This document shows, piece after piece, positions 11,297-19,154 of a stretch of 20,617 nucleotides of DNA (positions within the stretch are counted from its first letter, which is position 1; the number at the start of each line of letters is the position of its first letter). The notes under the pieces were generated by a model. The model was not told the origin of the DNA, ran no database searches, and saw only the letters and a program-made list of their open reading frames with translations. The position numbers and the translations under genes were made by a program. The stretch is from Desulfobacterales bacterium (GTDB lineage Bacteria; Desulfobacterota; Desulfobacteria; Desulfobacterales; JAFDCJ01), in contig CP070771.1 in the NCBI GenBank assembly GCA_020345785.1, positions 4,276,027 through 4,296,643 on the forward strand. Direction: 5' to 3'.

Positions 11297-12145
11297 ATGG
11301 CAGACAATTCTACGGTTGAACCTACCGCAGGAGACGCAGCACTGAGCTCAAAAAAAGGATTGCTGAGATCGTTTTTCGATTTTTTCGGCGGCAAAACCCT
11401 TAGGCTGAACAACGATCTGGGAGCCATGGCCATCTTTTTCTTTCGTTCCTTTTTCATGATCTTTCGGGTCAAGGCCATCCCGGACATTATACAGCAGGTC
11501 TATTTTATCGGGGCCAAATCGGCCCAGATCGTGATGCTGGTGGGTTTTTTCACCGGCATGGTCCTGGGGCTGCAGCTGTATTTCGTGCTGGTGAAGTTCG
11601 GCTCGGTGGGTGTGCTGGGCACCGCCATCGCTCTGACGCTGATTCGCGAGATGGGACCGGTGCTGGCCGCCATTATGATAACGGCCCGGGCGGGCTCGGC
11701 CATGACGGCGGAGATCGGCATCCAGCGCATCAGCGAGCAGATCGACGCGCTGTCCACCATGCGCATTGATCCGCTGGGCTATCTGATCAGCCCGCGCATT
11801 GCGGCGGCGATTATCAGTTTTCCGATTTTAACCGCCTTTTTTGACCTGATCGGCATCATCGGCGCCTGGGTCAGCGGCTGCCTGCTGCTGGGGGTTAATT
11901 CGGGCACCTACTTTTACCGAGTGTTGTCCAGCACCGAGTTGGACGACATCACGGGCGGCTTTACCAAATCCATCGTCTTTGGGCTGCTGGTGGTGACCAT
12001 CTGCTGTTTTCAGGGCTTCTTTACGCACATGCGCACCGACAGCTACGGCGCCAAGAGCGTCAGCCTGTCCACCACCTCGGCGGTAGTGATTTCGTGTGTG
12101 ATGATCCTGATTGCAGACTACGTGGTAACCTCGTTTATCGTTTAA
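11297..12145 (+). CDS. mlaE: MlaE, permease of the phospholipid ABC transporter
   Basis: This 282-residue inner-membrane protein of the MlaE/YrbE permease family forms the membrane part of the Mla complex, which moves phospholipids between inner and outer membranes. The N-terminal ~45 residues are soluble, followed by an amphipathic interface helix and several hydrophobic segments. The family core is clear: VGFFTGMVLGLQLYFVL, then IALTLIREMGPVLAAIMITARAGSA and EIGIQRISEQIDALSTM, the coupling region that contacts the ATPase, and a hydrophobic C-terminal third. The start at 11297 has GAGGG about ten bases upstream. It is the first mla gene here, in contrast to the E. coli order mlaFEDCB, and it is separated from mlaF by a 556-bp gap holding an inserted repeat element that begins one base after its stop codon. 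Confidence 0.94.
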   Translation: MADNSTVEPTAGDAALSSKKGLLRSFFDFFGGKTLRLNNDLGAMAIFFFRSFFMIFRVKAIPDIIQQVYFIGAKSAQIVMLVGFFTGMVLGLQLYFVLVKFGSVGVLGTAIALTLIREMGPVLAAIMITARAGSAMTAEIGIQRISEQIDALSTMRIDPLGYLISPRIAAAIISFPILTAFFDLIGIIGAWVSGCLLLGVNSGTYFYRVLSSTELDDITGGFTKSIVFGLLVVTICCFQGFFTHMRTDSYGAKSVSLSTTSAVVISCVMILIADYVVTSFIV

Positions 12146-12239
12146 TACCTGAATTTTGCACGTAAATCTCAATTACTGCGTTCGAAGCCACATTATCAGG
12201 ATTAACTTTGAGCGATGTTTGGTTTTAAAAATTCAGGTA
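12146..12239 (+). repeat. Left palindromic unit of the mla insertion
   Basis: TACCTGAATTTT (12146-12157) and its inverse AAAATTCAGGTA (12228-12239) bound a 94-bp unit. Its sequence outside the ends is only weakly like the inverted right unit. Confidence 0.7.
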
Positions 12240-12568
12240 ATAGTTATTTTTAAATGATTTTGCTCAGATTCTATAAAATACTATCTGATTTAAATTTCAT
12301 AAATTCAACTCATTGGCGACGTGCAAGAAGTTTCTTGCACAACCTATTGGCAAACCAAATTTATACGGCCAACGGTTATTGGCTGTGGAGTTTTAATCAA
12401 TTGGTATCAAAAAAAATCGAAAAATACCGTTGAAATATTGACTATTCAAGCCTTGGTGCTAAATCGGGCAAACCCGTAACCAGAGGGCTTTTTCGGACTT
12501 TTGCTTTTCAGTGTTGTTACCATCAGGGTAATTTTTGTTTTTGCAAAATAAACATAAAAAATAACAGA

Positions 12569-12661
12569 TACCTGAATTTTTTCCAGCAAACTTAGCTACG
12601 GAGCACCTAATAGAAACGCGCCTTTTTCATTGTTGTTAAGAATACGTGCAAAATTCAGGTA
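12569..12661 (-). repeat. Right palindromic unit of the mla insertion
   Basis: TACCTGAATTTT (12569-12580) and AAAATTCAGGTA (12650-12661) bound a 93-bp unit. Read in inverse it starts with the same 19 bases as the left unit, so the two units are in opposite orientation around 329 bp of central DNA. Confidence 0.7.
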
Positions 12662-12701: not shown

Positions 12702-13964
12702 ATGGATGCGCAAAGAGAACCTCTAATCGAATTTAAAGGCGTCAGCAAAACTTTCGGCACCCGCAACATTTTAAACCGCATCGATTTTTCCATTTATGAA
12801 GGCGAGGTGACGACGCTGATCGGCCTTTCCGGGACAGGCAAAAGCGTGACGCTCAAGCACATCATCGGGATGCTCAAACCCGATGAAGGGCAGATTCTGT
12901 ACCGGGGCAAGCCCATTGATAAGATGACCCGGAAGGAATGGAACGACTACATCGGTCAGATCAGCTACATGTTTCAGAACAATGCCCTGTTTGATTCGAT
13001 GACGGTTTTTGAAAACGTGGCCATGCCGCTGAAGTACACGACTAAATTAAAAAAGAAGGAAATCGAGAAAAAGGCCATGGCCCGCATCGAGCAGACCGAG
13101 CTGACCGAGGTGGCCGACAAATACCCGTCGGAGATCTCCGGCGGCATGCAGAAGCGGGCGGCCCTGGCGCGCGCCCTGGTCACCGATCCGAACATCGTGC
13201 TCTTTGACGAGCCCACCACCGGCCAGGACCCCATCCGCAAAAATGCTATCCTGGGAATGGTGGCCGAATATCAGAAGCGTTTCGGTTTCACGGCCCTTTT
13301 GATCAGCCACGAAATTCCGGATGTCTATTTCATCTCCAACCGCATCCTGGCGCTGTACGACCGCAAAATCGTATTCCAGGGGGACCCGGAGGCTTTTGAA
13401 GCACTGGACCATCCCTTCCGTCAGGAGCTGATCAGCAGCCTGGAGAGCCTGGGAGAAGAGCTGACGGGGCTTTATTCCAAGCGGCATTTCAAGGTTCGCT
13501 ATCAAACGGATTTGAGCCAGCGACAGCCGGATGCCACCTACGCGGCGGCCGTCTTCACGCTGGATGACATTGATGCCATTACCGAGCATCTGGGGCATGA
13601 ATCGGCCCAGCAAATCATTCGCTCTTTAGGTTCCTATATCAACAAACATTTCGGTGCGGTGGGCGGATTCTCGTCACGCCAGACAATTAACGAATATGCC
13701 ACCGTGCTGCCCTATTCGGATCTCGAAGAGGCCAATCGCATCATGGAGGATTTTACCCGGGATTTTCAAGCACACGGAATCCGCGGTATCGAGTTGCAGC
13801 AAGGCGAGGCGGGGTCGGATGAGGAGTGTACCGAATTCTCAGTCCTTGCCGGACTGGCCCAGGGTAAGCCTCAGATTGAGATCGAGTCCGTGATGGAGTT
13901 TGCACGGTTTAATCAAAAAGAGATTGCTAAATTCAAGTGTGGACCCGGAGGAAAATCAGCATGA
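12702..13964 (+). CDS. mlaF: MlaF ATPase with C-terminal degenerate GGDEF-like domain
   Basis: This 420-residue protein powers Mla phospholipid transport. Residues 1-250 are a complete ABC ATPase: Walker A GLSGTGKS (41-48), signature ISGGMQKRAALARAL (145-159), Walker B NIVLFDE (164-170), and H-loop His203 in LLISHE. MlaF proteins are usually about 265-270 residues, so there is an extra C-terminal region of about 150 residues. Its part 280-365 aligns by eye with GGDEF domains: FTLDDIDAITEHLGH matches the DxDxFKxxNDxxGH region, INEYATVLP falls where GGDEFailLP is expected, and DLEEANRIMEDF matches the following helix. The catalytic Gly-Gly-Asp is replaced, so cyclase activity is not expected. 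The start ATG at 12702 has CGGGAG about six bases upstream. The stop overlaps the mlaD start by ATGA. No mlaB gene is present in the window, so this domain might act as a regulatory partner; that is inference. Confidence 0.93.
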   Translation: MDAQREPLIEFKGVSKTFGTRNILNRIDFSIYEGEVTTLIGLSGTGKSVTLKHIIGMLKPDEGQILYRGKPIDKMTRKEWNDYIGQISYMFQNNALFDSMTVFENVAMPLKYTTKLKKKEIEKKAMARIEQTELTEVADKYPSEISGGMQKRAALARALVTDPNIVLFDEPTTGQDPIRKNAILGMVAEYQKRFGFTALLISHEIPDVYFISNRILALYDRKIVFQGDPEAFEALDHPFRQELISSLESLGEELTGLYSKRHFKVRYQTDLSQRQPDATYAAAVFTLDDIDAITEHLGHESAQQIIRSLGSYINKHFGAVGGFSSRQTINEYATVLPYSDLEEANRIMEDFTRDFQAHGIRGIELQQGEAGSDEECTEFSVLAGLAQGKPQIEIESVMEFARFNQKEIAKFKCGPGGKSA

Positions 13965-14443
13965 AAAAATATTCCAAGGAAACCGTCGTAGGCATTTTTG
14001 TGGTGATCGGCTTAGTTTGCATTGGTTATATGACTGTAAAACTCGGCAATGTAGGGTTTTTAGGCGACAACAGCTATACCCTGAATGCCAATTTCACCGC
14101 GGTAACCGGCCTGCGGGTCGGAAACCCGGTGAACATGCTCGGCCTGGAAATCGGTAGGGTAGAGAGCTTTAAAATGGACCAGGAGAATCAGGTGGTCAAG
14201 GTGCAGTTTAGAATCAACAAGGGCATCGAGATATTTGACGATGCGATTGCATCGATTAAAACCGAGGGGTTGATCGGGGATAAATACGTCTCGATCGATC
14301 CGGGCGGCGGCGGGGATCTGCTGGCCGACGGCGACTCCATCACCGATACCAACTCCCCCACCGACATCATGGATCTGGTCAGCAAGTATGCGTTTGGTGA
14401 CGTGGGCGGTGGAGGCGGAGGAGGAGGAGAGAAGGAAGAATAA
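13961..14443 (+). CDS. mlaD: MlaD, MCE-domain lipid-binding protein
   Basis: This 160-residue protein is anchored in the inner membrane by one N-terminal segment (about residues 8-28, GIFVVIGLVCIGYMTV core) with a periplasmic MCE domain at about 36-114 (YTLNANFTAVTGLRVGNPVNMLGLEIGRV.. onward). MCE proteins form hexameric rings that carry lipids between the MlaE permease and the periplasmic carrier MlaC. I chose ATG 13961 because GGAGG lies nine bases upstream and ATGA overlaps the mlaF stop; the frame is open to 13937, but that start lies inside mlaF without a ribosome binding site. The tail ends in eight glycines and EKEE, coded by a GGN-rich tract that may be length-variable. The C-terminal helix after the MCE domain is short compared with E. 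coli MlaD. Confidence 0.94.
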   Translation: MKKYSKETVVGIFVVIGLVCIGYMTVKLGNVGFLGDNSYTLNANFTAVTGLRVGNPVNMLGLEIGRVESFKMDQENQVVKVQFRINKGIEIFDDAIASIKTEGLIGDKYVSIDPGGGGDLLADGDSITDTNSPTDIMDLVSKYAFGDVGGGGGGGGEKEE

Positions 14444-14779
14444 AGATGAAGTCGGAATTATGCGCGTGACGCGTGACGCGTTACGGGTTGCAAGGTGGAG
14501 GGATAGGCATAGCGCATAGGGCATAGCGTTAAAAGCGGAGATCGGGTTGCGGGATGGCGCTCTGGCGCACCGGCTCATAGCTGATAGCAATAAGGGGTTG
14601 ATTAAGTTCATTGAGTTGATTGAGTTTATAAGTTGAATGGATTGATTGAATTGTAAAATCAGAATGAGTCCTTATTCCCCAATCAACTTAATCAACTAAT
14701 CAACCAAGAAGACGATCCAAACGATCGTAACGGACATAACGAACATAACAATCAAGACGAATCCCAAAGGGAGGAAAAT
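14444..14779. repeat. Gap between mlaD and mlaC with degenerate repeats
   Basis: No gene is supported. It holds GCGTGAC-type tandem units (about 14464-14485), GGCATAGCGCATAGGGCATAGCG-type units (about 14507-14528), TTGATTGAGTT-type units (about 14597-14652) and the inverse kind, AATCAACTTAATCAAC (about 14681-14703). The TTGATT and AATCAA blocks could pair as a long weak stem. The last bases supply the mlaC ribosome binding site. Confidence 0.65.
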
Positions 14780-15379
14780 ATGACTAGAAAATTTACCGCA
14801 TTTATATTGATATTTGCAGTGGTGTTGATGATTCCGCTGCATGGATTTGCGGCAGGCCCTAAAGAAACCGTGGAAGCCGGCGTCAACAAGGTTCTTGCAA
14901 CGCTGACCGATTCGGCATTCAAGGCCAAATCCAAAGATGAGCAACTCGCCCAACTAACTGAGGTGATCAGTACGATTTTCGACTTTGACGAACTGTCAAA
15001 AAGAACCCTGGGCCGGGAATGGAAAAAAATGAAGGACGCGCAGCAAAAAGAATTTGTCGAGTTGTTCAGGGAACTGCTCCAGGGGGTTTATGCGGACAGG
15101 CTGCTGGCTTACTCGGATCAGAAAGTTATTTTTGATAAGGAAAGCATGCTTAAAAAGGGAACAGCCGAGGTTCAGAGTTATCTGCAGACGTCGGACGGCA
15201 AAAAAATCCCGCTTTTTTACCGGCTCACCGACAAAAGCGGCTCCTGGAAGGTTTACGACGTCATCATCGAAGGGGTCAGCATGGTGAAAAACTACCGTAC
15301 CCAGTTCAGGGAAATACTCGCCAAAGAGTCTCCCGAAAAATTGCTGGAAATATTGCGCAATAAAGTGGGTAAAGGCTAG
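14780..15379 (+). CDS. mlaC: MlaC, periplasmic phospholipid carrier
   Basis: This 199-residue protein has a cleavable signal peptide (MTRK, then a hydrophobic run to about residue 20, with a likely cut after HGFAA at about 25). The mature part matches the MlaC/Ttg2D family: a helical N-terminus, FDFDELSKRTLGREWKKM, EFVELFRELLQGVYADRLLAYSD and KVYDVIIEGVSMVKNYRTQF are typical. MlaC shuttles single phospholipids between the outer-membrane MlaA complex and the inner-membrane MlaFED complex. The start at 14780 has GGGAGG six bases upstream. It is separated from mlaD by 336 bp of repeat-rich DNA and is followed by mlaA, so the operon is looser than in enterobacteria. Confidence 0.94.
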   Translation: MTRKFTAFILIFAVVLMIPLHGFAAGPKETVEAGVNKVLATLTDSAFKAKSKDEQLAQLTEVISTIFDFDELSKRTLGREWKKMKDAQQKEFVELFRELLQGVYADRLLAYSDQKVIFDKESMLKKGTAEVQSYLQTSDGKKIPLFYRLTDKSGSWKVYDVIIEGVSMVKNYRTQFREILAKESPEKLLEILRNKVGKG

Positions 15380-15526: not shown

Positions 15527-16366
15527 GTGAAAAAGTTATGGCCGGTCGCCGCAGCAATATTCTTCTTTATTTTACTTTTCAGCAATAATCCCGCAGGGGC
15601 TTTCAATGATGAAGCCACGCTTTATCTGGCCCAGGCAGCGCCGGAGGCTTCCGATACTGCCGGGGATCAAACCCAGGAGCAAGCCGCCGAAGATGAGGAA
15701 GACGAGTACGACGATGAATACGACGACGAGGATGAATACGCCGAGGCCGAAGATGTGATCCTGATCCCGGATCCCTGGGTGGAGATGAACCGGGGGCTGT
15801 ATACCTTCAACGACAAGATGTATTTCTGGGTGCTCAAGCCGGTCGCCCGAGGATACGGCTTTATTATCCCGGAAGAGCTGCGCCAGGCCATTCGCAATGC
15901 CTTTTACAACATCCGCTTTCCGGTGCGTTTTATCAACTGCCTGCTGCAGGGCAAATTCCGCAAGTCGGGCTATGAATTCGGCCAGTTTTTCATCAATACC
16001 ACCGCCGGTTGCGTGGGGCTGTTGAATCCGGCGGCCAACTACCCCGAGTTGCAGCCCAGCAAGGAAGATCTGGGCCAGACCTTTGCCGTCTGGGGATTTG
16101 ACAACGGCGCCTATCTGATGCTGCCGTTTTTCGGACCTTCCAGCCTGCGTGATGGTCTGGGCAGACTGGGCGACACCTTCCTGGACCCTATCTGGTGGCT
16201 GTTTGACGAGCTCTGGGTATCATTGGCCATTCGTGCCGGCGAGACCGTCAACGACACATCGCTGCGAATCGGGGAGTACGAGGCCCTGAAAGAAGCCGCC
16301 CTGGATCCCTACGTCATGATTCGCAACGCTTACGTTCAGAACCGCAACAAGCTGATCGCGGAGTAG
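15527..16366 (+). CDS. mlaA: MlaA (VacJ-family) outer-membrane lipid transport protein
   Basis: This 279-residue protein belongs to the MlaA/VacJ family, the outer-membrane part of the Mla system, which removes phospholipids from the outer leaflet. The family domain runs from about residue 82 (DPWVEMNRGLYTFND) to 265, with RFINCLLQGKFRKSGYEFGQFFINTT, GLLNPA, DLGQTFAVWGFDNGAYLMLPFFGPSSLRDGLG and DPIWWLF. The start is GTG at 15527, with AAGGAGA about 11 bases upstream. The N-terminus is a signal peptide (KKLWPVAAAIFFFILLF..AGA), but there is no lipobox cysteine, unlike E. coli MlaA, which is a lipoprotein. Between signal and domain is an acidic linker (about 55-76) rich in Asp, Glu and Tyr. It is the last mla gene; its stop is followed by a long non-coding region. 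Confidence 0.93.
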   Translation: MKKLWPVAAAIFFFILLFSNNPAGAFNDEATLYLAQAAPEASDTAGDQTQEQAAEDEEDEYDDEYDDEDEYAEAEDVILIPDPWVEMNRGLYTFNDKMYFWVLKPVARGYGFIIPEELRQAIRNAFYNIRFPVRFINCLLQGKFRKSGYEFGQFFINTTAGCVGLLNPAANYPELQPSKEDLGQTFAVWGFDNGAYLMLPFFGPSSLRDGLGRLGDTFLDPIWWLFDELWVSLAIRAGETVNDTSLRIGEYEALKEAALDPYVMIRNAYVQNRNKLIAE

Positions 16367-17130: not shown

Positions 17131-18153
17131 ATGTCAACTGTCGGTTTAGGCTTAATGGGTTTTGGCAGGATCGGAAGAAACCTCTTCCGCATTCTTTACC
17201 AGAGCCGGGATATCCGTTTGCGGGCGATCAGCGATATTGCCGATCACAAAGCGCTCGAGTATTTGTTGCGTTTCGATACGATTTTGGGCCCCTTTCCGGA
17301 TGAAGTCAGCGTCAAGGAAGGGCACCTTTACGTGGCCGGGCGCCAGGTTCCCATGCTTTCGGAAAAAGAGCCCGGTGACGTGCCGTGGGGAGACCTTGGG
17401 GTCGATGTGGTGATTGAGGCCACCGCCCGCAGATGGTCGCGCGGGAAGCTCGAAAGGCATCTCGAACGGGGAGCCAAACGGGTTATTCTATGCGCTCCGC
17501 CCCAGGACCCACCGGATATTACGGTGGTGATGGGCGTCAACGACGATCAGCTGAAACCGGAGCACCGCATTGTCTCCAACGGTTCGTGCACGGCCCACTG
17601 CGCAGCGCCGATCGTCAAAGTACTGCATGAAGCTTTCGGAATTCAGCGGGCGTTTCTGAGCACCGTTCATGCATATACCAACCAGCAGCGCCTGGCGGAT
17701 GTTCCCTCCGAAGATAAACGCCGCGGCCGGGCGGCCGCCGAAAACATTATTCCCCAGACAACCGATGCCGCTCTGATGGTTTCCAGCTTGATACCCGAAA
17801 TGGAAGGGCGCATCAGCGGCGGATCCATGAATGTTCCCGTGCCCAACGGCTCGGTGGTGGATCTGGTTTGCTGGCATGAAAAACCGGTGACGACCACCGC
17901 AATCAACGAGGTGGTGCGGACAGCCGCCTCTACTGTTAAATGGCGTGAAATCATCGAGTATGAGGACGATCCCATCGTATCCAGCGACATCATTCGCAGT
18001 CCCTACTCGACCACCTTCGATTCCCTGGCCACCATGGTGATGGGAGATCGCGTCTCTAAAACGCTTTCCTGGTACGACAATGGCTGGGGTTATGCACACC
18101 GAGTGGTAGATCTCATCAATACCTTCTCTGAAATAGAAAAGGAGGCAGCATAA
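17131..18153 (+). CDS. Divergent GAPDH-family dehydrogenase
   Basis: This 340-residue protein has the full glyceraldehyde-3-phosphate dehydrogenase fold: the NAD-binding GFGRIGRNLFR at the N-terminus, catalytic Cys153 in SNGSCTAHC, and catalytic His180 in STVHAYTNQQRLADVP. However, several positions normally invariant are changed. Asn234 stands where GAPDH has the substrate-phosphate arginine (SMNVPVP against AMRVPVP in the next gene), TTDAAL replaces TTGAAR, EATARRW replaces ESTGVF, and WYDNGWGYAHR replaces WYDNEWGYSNR. It is therefore probably an NAD(P)-dependent aldehyde dehydrogenase of altered substrate or a regulatory paralogue; erythrose-4-phosphate dehydrogenase would be expected to keep the arginine. 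A strong AAGGAGGTG precedes ATG 17131. Its stop overlaps the next gene's ATG by one base (TAATG), so the two are translated as a pair. Confidence 0.9.
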   Translation: MSTVGLGLMGFGRIGRNLFRILYQSRDIRLRAISDIADHKALEYLLRFDTILGPFPDEVSVKEGHLYVAGRQVPMLSEKEPGDVPWGDLGVDVVIEATARRWSRGKLERHLERGAKRVILCAPPQDPPDITVVMGVNDDQLKPEHRIVSNGSCTAHCAAPIVKVLHEAFGIQRAFLSTVHAYTNQQRLADVPSEDKRRGRAAAENIIPQTTDAALMVSSLIPEMEGRISGGSMNVPVPNGSVVDLVCWHEKPVTTTAINEVVRTAASTVKWREIIEYEDDPIVSSDIIRSPYSTTFDSLATMVMGDRVSKTLSWYDNGWGYAHRVVDLINTFSEIEKEAA

Positions 18154-19154
18154 TGGCTATAAACATCGGAATAAACGGCTTCGGCCGCATCGGCCGCAGC
18201 GTCTTTCGAATTTTAAGTGATCGCAATGATGTTAACGTCGTATGCATCAACGACCTGTTTGACAACGAACAGCTTGCCTACCTTCTGAAATACGATACGG
18301 TGATGGGTATCTTCCCAAAGGAGGTGCGGGCAACTGCGGATGCTATGTATGTGGGCGATCAGAAAGTTGTGATGACCGATCAGCGGGACCCGGCTGAAAT
18401 TCCCTGGAAAGATTTGGGGGTTGATTTTGTCATTGAATCAACCGGCGTGTTTCGCGAGAGAAAAGGTCTGGAAAAGCATTTAGCGGCGGGAGCGGGCAAA
18501 GTGATTCTCACGGTGCCGGCCAAGGATGAAATCGATGCCACTATCGTACTCGGCGTCAACGACGATCAACTCAAGGCGGATCACCGCATCGTCTCCAATG
18601 CATCCTGCACCACCAATTGCCTGGCACCCATTGCCAAAATTCTCGATGAATCTTTCGGCATCGAAGAAGGGTTTATCACCACGGTCCACGCCTATACCAA
18701 CGACCAGCGTCTGGCCGATGTGCCTCACAAAGACTTTCGACGCAGTCGTGCTGCAGGCGAAAATATTATTCCCACAACCACCGGTGCGGCCCGGGCGGTC
18801 GGCAAGGTGCTGCCGCAATTGAAGGGCAAACTGGATGGGCTGGCCATGCGTGTTCCGGTGCCGGACGGCTCCATCGTGGACCTGGTGGCCCGCCTGGGGC
18901 GCAACGCATCCGTGGAAGAAGTCAATGCCGCGGCGCGGGAAGCAGCCGAGGGGCCGATGCGAAAGGTCGTCGAATACAGCGACGCACCGCTGGTCTCGAG
19001 CGACATCATCGGCAATCCCCATTCAAGTATTTTTGACGCGCTGTCCACCATATCATTGCAGGACGGCTTTGTCAGGATTGTTTCATGGTACGACAACGAG
19101 TGGGGCTACTCCAATCGAGTAGTGGATCTGATTGATAAGATGGCAACCCTGTGA
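18153..19154 (+). CDS. gap: Glyceraldehyde-3-phosphate dehydrogenase, type I
   Basis: This 333-residue enzyme oxidises glyceraldehyde-3-phosphate to 1,3-bisphosphoglycerate with NAD, in glycolysis, or the reverse in gluconeogenesis. All key motifs are standard: INGFGRIGRSVFR, the Asp of CINDLFDNEQLAYLLKYD that favours NAD, catalytic Cys152 in SNASCTTNCLAP, His179 in TTVHAYTNDQRLADVP, TTTGAARAVGKVLP, phosphate-binding Arg233 in AMRVPVPDGS, and WYDNEWGYSNRVVDL. The ATG at 18153 overlaps the stop of the divergent paralogue, and its ribosome binding site AAGGAGG lies in the end of that gene. The stop is followed directly by degenerate repeats and then the glycerate kinase. Confidence 0.97.
   Translation: MAINIGINGFGRIGRSVFRILSDRNDVNVVCINDLFDNEQLAYLLKYDTVMGIFPKEVRATADAMYVGDQKVVMTDQRDPAEIPWKDLGVDFVIESTGVFRERKGLEKHLAAGAGKVILTVPAKDEIDATIVLGVNDDQLKADHRIVSNASCTTNCLAPIAKILDESFGIEEGFITTVHAYTNDQRLADVPHKDFRRSRAAGENIIPTTTGAARAVGKVLPQLKGKLDGLAMRVPVPDGSIVDLVARLGRNASVEEVNAAAREAAEGPMRKVVEYSDAPLVSSDIIGNPHSSIFDALSTISLQDGFVRIVSWYDNEWGYSNRVVDLIDKMATL

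Follow-up and report, generated by a model that had tools for sequence, protein, structure and literature searches.

An Mla-type ABC transporter ATPase carrying a degenerate GGDEF domain in Desulfobacterales and related bacteria

What is a GGDEF-like domain doing at the end of a lipid transporter's motor protein; is it an enzyme, a sensor or a structural part? The question is raised by an operon in the window, by which we mean the whole 20,617-nucleotide stretch of Desulfobacterales DNA analyzed here. On its + strand lie mlaE (11297..12145; a permease of 282 aa, PF02405 7.8e-70), an mlaF-type ABC ATPase gene (12702..13964; 420 aa in one open reading frame), mlaD (13961..14443; 160 aa with an MCE domain, PF02470 4.7e-21 and TIGR04430 above cut-off), mlaC (14780..15379; PF05494 3.5e-48) and mlaA (15527..16366; PF04333 1.1e-66), and the start ATG of mlaD overlaps the stop TGA of mlaF (ATGA, 13961-13964). 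The mlaF product opens with an ABC nucleotide-binding domain (residues 1-240, 12702..13421, + strand; PF00005 3.5e-35), in whose sequence Walker A, the SGGM signature and Walker B are all present, and continues with a degenerate GGDEF-fold domain at residues ~250-412 (13449..13937, + strand). Its score against the MlaF equivalog NF008809, 193 bits, lies below the cut-off of 441; mlaE and mlaD, the neighbors by which we recognize an MlaF-type ATPase, are both in the operon. Among 70 family members, some of them partial proteins, the ABC motif strings were found in 68 (Walker A), 70 (SGG[MQE]), 66 (LFDEPT) and 69 (H-loop). Between mlaE and mlaF, which in most related operons lie within ~20 nt of each other, the window holds a 514-bp AT-rich element (12147-12660; 34-38% GC) bounded by perfect inverted repeats of 18 nt and resembling a MITE-type insertion; the 18-mer was absent from all 188 loci searched. 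In the gap between mlaD and mlaC, GTTGATTAAG-type sequence forms short inverted repeats (14597-14697), and two neighboring genes that by eye are glyceraldehyde-3-phosphate-dehydrogenase-like (17131-18153 and 18153-19154) overlap by 1 base.

That the C-terminal domain of the window MlaF is a GGDEF domain, as a matter of identity alone, is nearly certain. It scores 30.1 bits against PF00990, whose curated cut-off is 23.8 (a distant member, L085, falls slightly under it at 22.6 bits), and both the predicted models and their fold matches, LapD among them, place it in the GGDEF fold. The first-pass annotation had proposed, by eye, a fusion of an MlaF ATPase to a degenerate GGDEF-like domain, and this proposal is borne out by the family profile, the fold prediction and the homologues; the structure prediction that it suggested for the extension did return a GGDEF fold, and the INEY stretch that it had put in the place of the GGDEF motif belongs there, R326-QTINEY-332 (13677..13697, + strand) aligning with R-x-GGDEF in the alignment to DgcR. 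Upstream, EELTGLY (residues 252-258; 13455..13475, + strand) is the counterpart of DxLTGL, which we take to be the N-terminal motif of the GGDEF family. Chance similarity is ruled out by the profile, sequence and fold matches, and a frame or assembly error by a size and layout that homologues from many contigs have in common, the extension thus not being confined to one sequence. The full-length monomer model reached a pTM of 0.56, so that the placement of the GGDEF-like domain relative to the ATPase is not fixed by the model.

How widespread is this protein, and how has it been inherited? With residues 245-420 as the query, 1097 proteins matched at E 1e-3 or better, and 110 of 121 (the best 120 of these matches plus the window protein) are 390-445 aa long, most with both Pfam domains; hosts named among the matches are Desulfobacterales, Desulfosarcina, Syntrophorhabdales and Thermodesulfatator. 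In the phylum to which one relative belongs, a hand count of the best 60 rows of a broad-profile search, down to 5.8e-32 and representing 56 genomes, verified the fusion in at least 56 of 395 genomes; within the hand count both parts share one open reading frame, in some cases cut by a contig end, in 55 of the 56 genomes, G356 has the GGDEF part alone, and G293, below the 5.8e-32 line, adds one fusion. At 1e-8 the profile matched 54 of the 395 genomes, with seven matches being separate GGDEF proteins without an ATPase (four of them Pfam-checked), and at 1e-10 the broad profile matched at least 369, fusions included, mostly through ordinary GGDEF proteins. An ATPase-domain tree, unrooted and from a quick search without bootstrap, with some non-fused rows on long branches, separates 69 fused from 57 non-fused proteins at one branch (SH-aLRT 100). 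Pairwise distances of the two domains correlate across the 70 members (r = 0.87; 0 of 1000 permutations as high), and the GGDEF-like domain evolves faster, its mean pairwise identity being 31% against 63% for the ATPase. The simplest way to read these comparisons is that the two domains fused once and were inherited together from then on. In the ATPase tree the window protein sits closest to Olavius symbiont Delta 1 and to Desulfobacterales MAGs. Non-fused MlaF proteins among the rows listed end 9-37 aa past the ATPase domain. One short MlaF of 277 aa (L151, 2269-3102) sits on a very long branch within an otherwise typical mlaEFDCA operon and is possibly a case of secondary domain loss. The NCBI record of another member, P0125, reads 'diguanylate cyclase [Thermodesulfatator sp.]'; the protein has no GG[DE]EF-like string, and the name is likely a misannotation.

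Could the domain still be catalytic? We counted residues in an alignment of the 70 members, window included, with positions set by domain alignment to DgcR and with the roles of the canonical GGDEF residues (metal, guanine site, I-site) presumed to hold at the aligned positions. In the EELTGLY motif, T255 occurs in 65 members and G256 in 69. The position of T286 (13557..13559, + strand), presumably that of the first metal-binding Asp of canonical GGDEF enzymes, is Asp in 0 of 70, with a single Glu and mostly Thr (35) or Ser (17); the guanine-site Asp is likewise found in 0 of 70, with Gln in its place in 54, and the guanine-site Asn in nine, where 14 other residues also occur. No member has the GG pair (21 have its first Gly, none its second), which extends to the family the loss of catalytic glycines noticed at first pass. 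A GGDEF or GGEEF motif occurs in 0 of 70, the window having TINEY; the motif Glu is retained in 42 and the preceding Arg (R326) in all 70. The I-site RxxD upstream of this position is also found in 0 of 70, with a gap at the Arg position in 24, and no GG[DE]EF-like string occurs past residue 200 in any of 256 proteins examined. Judged by its residues, the domain, though complete, is apparently catalytically dead. Between the window and five relatives, dN/dS (NG86) is 0.043-0.105 in the GGDEF-like domain and 0.017-0.091 in the ATPase, rough values given that dS exceeds 1 in 9 of 10 comparisons, and GGFSSRQTINEYATVLP inside the domain is 90-100% conserved in 110 sequences. By these substitution ratios, purifying selection has kept the domain.

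What surrounds the fusion bears on its partner proteins. We used those fusion open reading frames, 61 of 73, that have flanks of 1.5 kb on the upstream side and 2.5 kb on the downstream side, a span in which the full 3 kb is not always covered; the flanks of the other 12 were too short, and the count does not include L016-L045, which are short duplicates, or L098-L177, apart from L141. Beside these 61 fusions lie mlaE in 56 cases, mlaD in 58, mlaC in 53 and mlaA in 41 (at L006, mlaD, mlaC and mlaA adjoin the fusion and mlaE was not found). A STAS profile, seeded partly from long MlaE proteins carrying STAS, matched beside 0 of the 61, window included, and beside 0 of 59 in a separate count; it gave no match in the window's 282-aa MlaE, and 0 of the 56 loci with MlaE have one of 340 aa or more beside the fusion. 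The first-pass annotation had seen no mlaB gene, and for the fused operons this observation stands. Genome-wide, PF13466 (STAS_2) matches somewhere in at least 51 of 57 fused genomes, in at least 43 over the cut-off; many of the matches listed fall in 110-150 aa frames and others within the long MlaE, in part that of a second Mla-type system, so that MlaB could be supplied in trans.

For comparison, 77 MlaE genes of non-fused systems in the same phylum have STAS within MlaE in 19 cases, within 3 kb in three and in neither place in 55. These come from the 83 of 94 MlaE rows that were counted, in which one gene adjoins a fusion, five lack an ATPase within 800 nt and the remaining 77 adjoin a non-fused one; several of the rows outside the 83 adjoin fusions. 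In a smaller earlier control, with long-frame MlaE left out, 3 of 41 loci had STAS no more than 3 kb away, and 11 of the 41 had 2.5 kb on both sides. The loci are related, some near-identical or from the same genome, so these counts are not counts of independent events. No locus examined combines STAS with the GGDEF-fold domain, and having no local STAS is the commoner state in non-fused systems; the phylum thus holds three or more layouts, namely STAS with MlaE, a short MlaF without local STAS, and an MlaF extended by the GGDEF-fold domain. The missing local STAS fits a replacement of MlaB; as proof of replacement it is insufficient, since those 55 non-fused systems share it. Second Mla-type systems also occur in fused genomes (L098-L117), with an MlaE of ~370-420 aa that carries an N-terminal STAS domain in 20 of 20 fetched; these 20 were chosen for STAS, and 16 of them seeded the profile. 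At L098 the long MlaE is followed by a short MlaF (268 aa) and then by what by eye is an MCE-like protein (344 aa). Extra fused MlaF genes without adjoining Mla genes were seen at L092 (5835-7076), L093 (6608-7900) and L179 (4089-5300), among unrelated neighbors (UvdE, histone-deacetylase-like, chaperonin and others).

The natural reference is the E. coli Mla motor, whose MlaF is the best Foldseek match of the full window model (6xgy) and is accompanied by partner genes of the same kinds (mlaE, D, C and A). Residues 7-243 of E. coli MlaF align without a gap with the window ATPase domain, and the extra domain starts right after. According to PMC7367683, the ~25-aa C-terminal tail of E. coli MlaF embraces the neighboring MlaF and touches MlaB; cells with a tail-less MlaF fail to grow on SDS/EDTA, and growth is substantially restored, below the wild-type level, when a GCN4 dimerization domain replaces the tail. 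The same paper describes MlaB as required for MlaF stability and complex assembly, and the assembly and regulation of the motor, with the purpose of MlaB and of the tail, as unsettled even in E. coli. Where the E. coli protein has a ~25-aa handshake tail and bound MlaB, the window has no handshake tail of the MlaFEDB kind, and no mlaB was found in the operon; instead, a GGDEF-fold domain of ~165 residues begins at about residue 250.

We propose that a GGDEF domain joined the C-terminus of the MlaF-type ATPase in an mlaEFDC(A) transporter, most simply once and early in the phylum, and that its cyclase chemistry may have been lost, or the domain may already have been dead, before the family radiated. 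The GGDEF-like domains of an MlaF pair, with each other or each with the neighboring ATPase, would then bind the motor dimer together and keep it on MlaE, standing in for both the handshake tail and MlaB and making MlaB dispensable. Taken whole, from early fusion and lost chemistry to a dimerization or assembly module, this statement is tentative and falls a little short of probable. The assembly role is the part that we infer, and a folded handshake appears the likeliest form of it because of the E. coli tail, the GCN4 rescue, the role of MlaB and the dimerization of GGDEF domains. Active GGDEF enzymes require dimers, and in two-hybrid assays of isolated E. coli GGDEF domains 2 of 7 degenerate ones (strongly) and 2 of 12 active ones homodimerized (PMC5635695), so dimerization is not automatic for such domains. 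Against the assembly role, the 55 non-fused systems manage with neither a local STAS nor a GGDEF-like domain, and MlaB in trans is possible there too. The faster evolution of the GGDEF-like domain, its unfixed placement in the monomer model and the possible MlaB in trans of the fused genomes also weigh against this role.

In the main rival to the assembly module, the GGDEF-like domain has a remodeled pocket for a nucleotide or some other small ligand and tunes the rate or coupling of the ATPase. The ACT-like domain of MetN and the CBS domains of ProV/OpuA adjust their ABC ATPases, and the full-length Foldseek search lists MetN, in which a regulatory domain forms the C-terminus of an ABC ATPase, at ranks 6 and 9; these matches, however, cover the tail only at 7-8 Å rmsd, indicating a shared layout at most. 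Strong conservation among close members (GGFSSRQTINEYATVLP), the Gln that consistently replaces the guanine-site Asp, and an Arg or Lys at residue 402 in 51 of 70, assigned by eye to the phosphate-binding Lys, would suit a ligand site, whereas the metal Asp, guanine-site Asp, GG pair and RxxD are absent throughout and the Asn position is variable. The loss of these contacts speaks against GTP or c-di-GMP being bound in the classical way, and leaves room for a different ligand. Of the first-pass idea of a nucleotide- or signal-sensing domain fused to the motor, then, the fusion is supported and the sensing, in its classical form, is not, most of the contacts being lost; another ligand is compatible with the residues. 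We consider this rival unlikely, if worth keeping in sight. A combined reading, in which a dead cyclase domain replaced the STAS regulator and handshake tail in one large clade of the phylum, kept or gained a ligand site and lets an intracellular signal gate outer-membrane lipid traffic through the ATPase, strikes us as improbable.

Docking is a further alternative, in which the domain would recruit a GGDEF/EAL signaling protein, a regulator or MlaE to the motor and dimerization would be incidental. Some degenerate E. coli GGDEF domains do contact other GGDEF domains specifically (PMC5635695), and most genomes of the phylum offer further GGDEF proteins, as the broad-profile matches indicate. 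Only Mla genes recur beside the fusions, a weak point against docking given that STAS and Mla genes alone were tested for; we hold it to be decidedly improbable. A functionless remnant of an old fusion, as the lost catalytic residues might suggest, is very hard to reconcile with the low dN/dS in all five comparisons and with retention across a deep clade. An active diguanylate cyclase that the transporter controls, acting as sensor, for which profile similarity and the name of P0125 speak, is rejected on residues as next to impossible, the motif and metal Asp being missing from all 70 members and a GG[DE]EF-like string from all 256 proteins.

We see several reasons to care about the assembly-module reading and the family behind it. 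A fusion inherited in many sulfate-reducing and related bacteria probably replaces the small helper parts that keep the E. coli motor together, and a clade with a folded, apparently dead signaling domain at the tail position and no adjoining STAS found amounts to a natural experiment on the function of MlaB and the tail. Degenerate GGDEF domains gain a place beyond GGDEF/EAL signaling proteins, and the public record that names a family member a diguanylate cyclase needs correction. No publication on this fusion was found among open PMC papers; precomputed Pfam annotations do already list the pair of ATPase and GGDEF domain.

How does the window family compare with other known systems? The diguanylate cyclases SadC, PleD, DgcB and DgcR differ from it in that all 70 members are without the GGDEF motif, metal Asp and I-site, and in that the GGDEF-type domain here sits behind an ABC ATPase. 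The Amt ammonium transporter of PDB 8qj3, which we take to be a sensor with an active cyclase, has a GGDEF-like stretch at residues 469-578, a weak sequence match (E 0.019); being named an ammonium transporter, it is not an ABC motor, unlike the window MlaF. LapD has a degenerate GGDEF domain. The E. coli proteins CdgI, CsrD, PdeK and PdeR also have degenerate GGDEF domains, several of which contact GGDEF domains specifically, and CdgI retains an I-site where none of the 70 window-family members does (PMC5635695 for the E. coli proteins). The degenerate domains of E. coli and LapD belong to GGDEF/EAL signaling proteins, whereas that of the window belongs to a transporter motor. MetN, MalK and ProV/OpuA have, as the window MlaF does, an extra domain straight after the ATPase, and theirs is ACT-like, TOBE-type or CBS rather than GGDEF-type. 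Both parts of the window protein are thus of known kinds, and what sets it apart is their combination, an Mla-type ABC motor with an apparently dead GGDEF domain at the position of the handshake tail.
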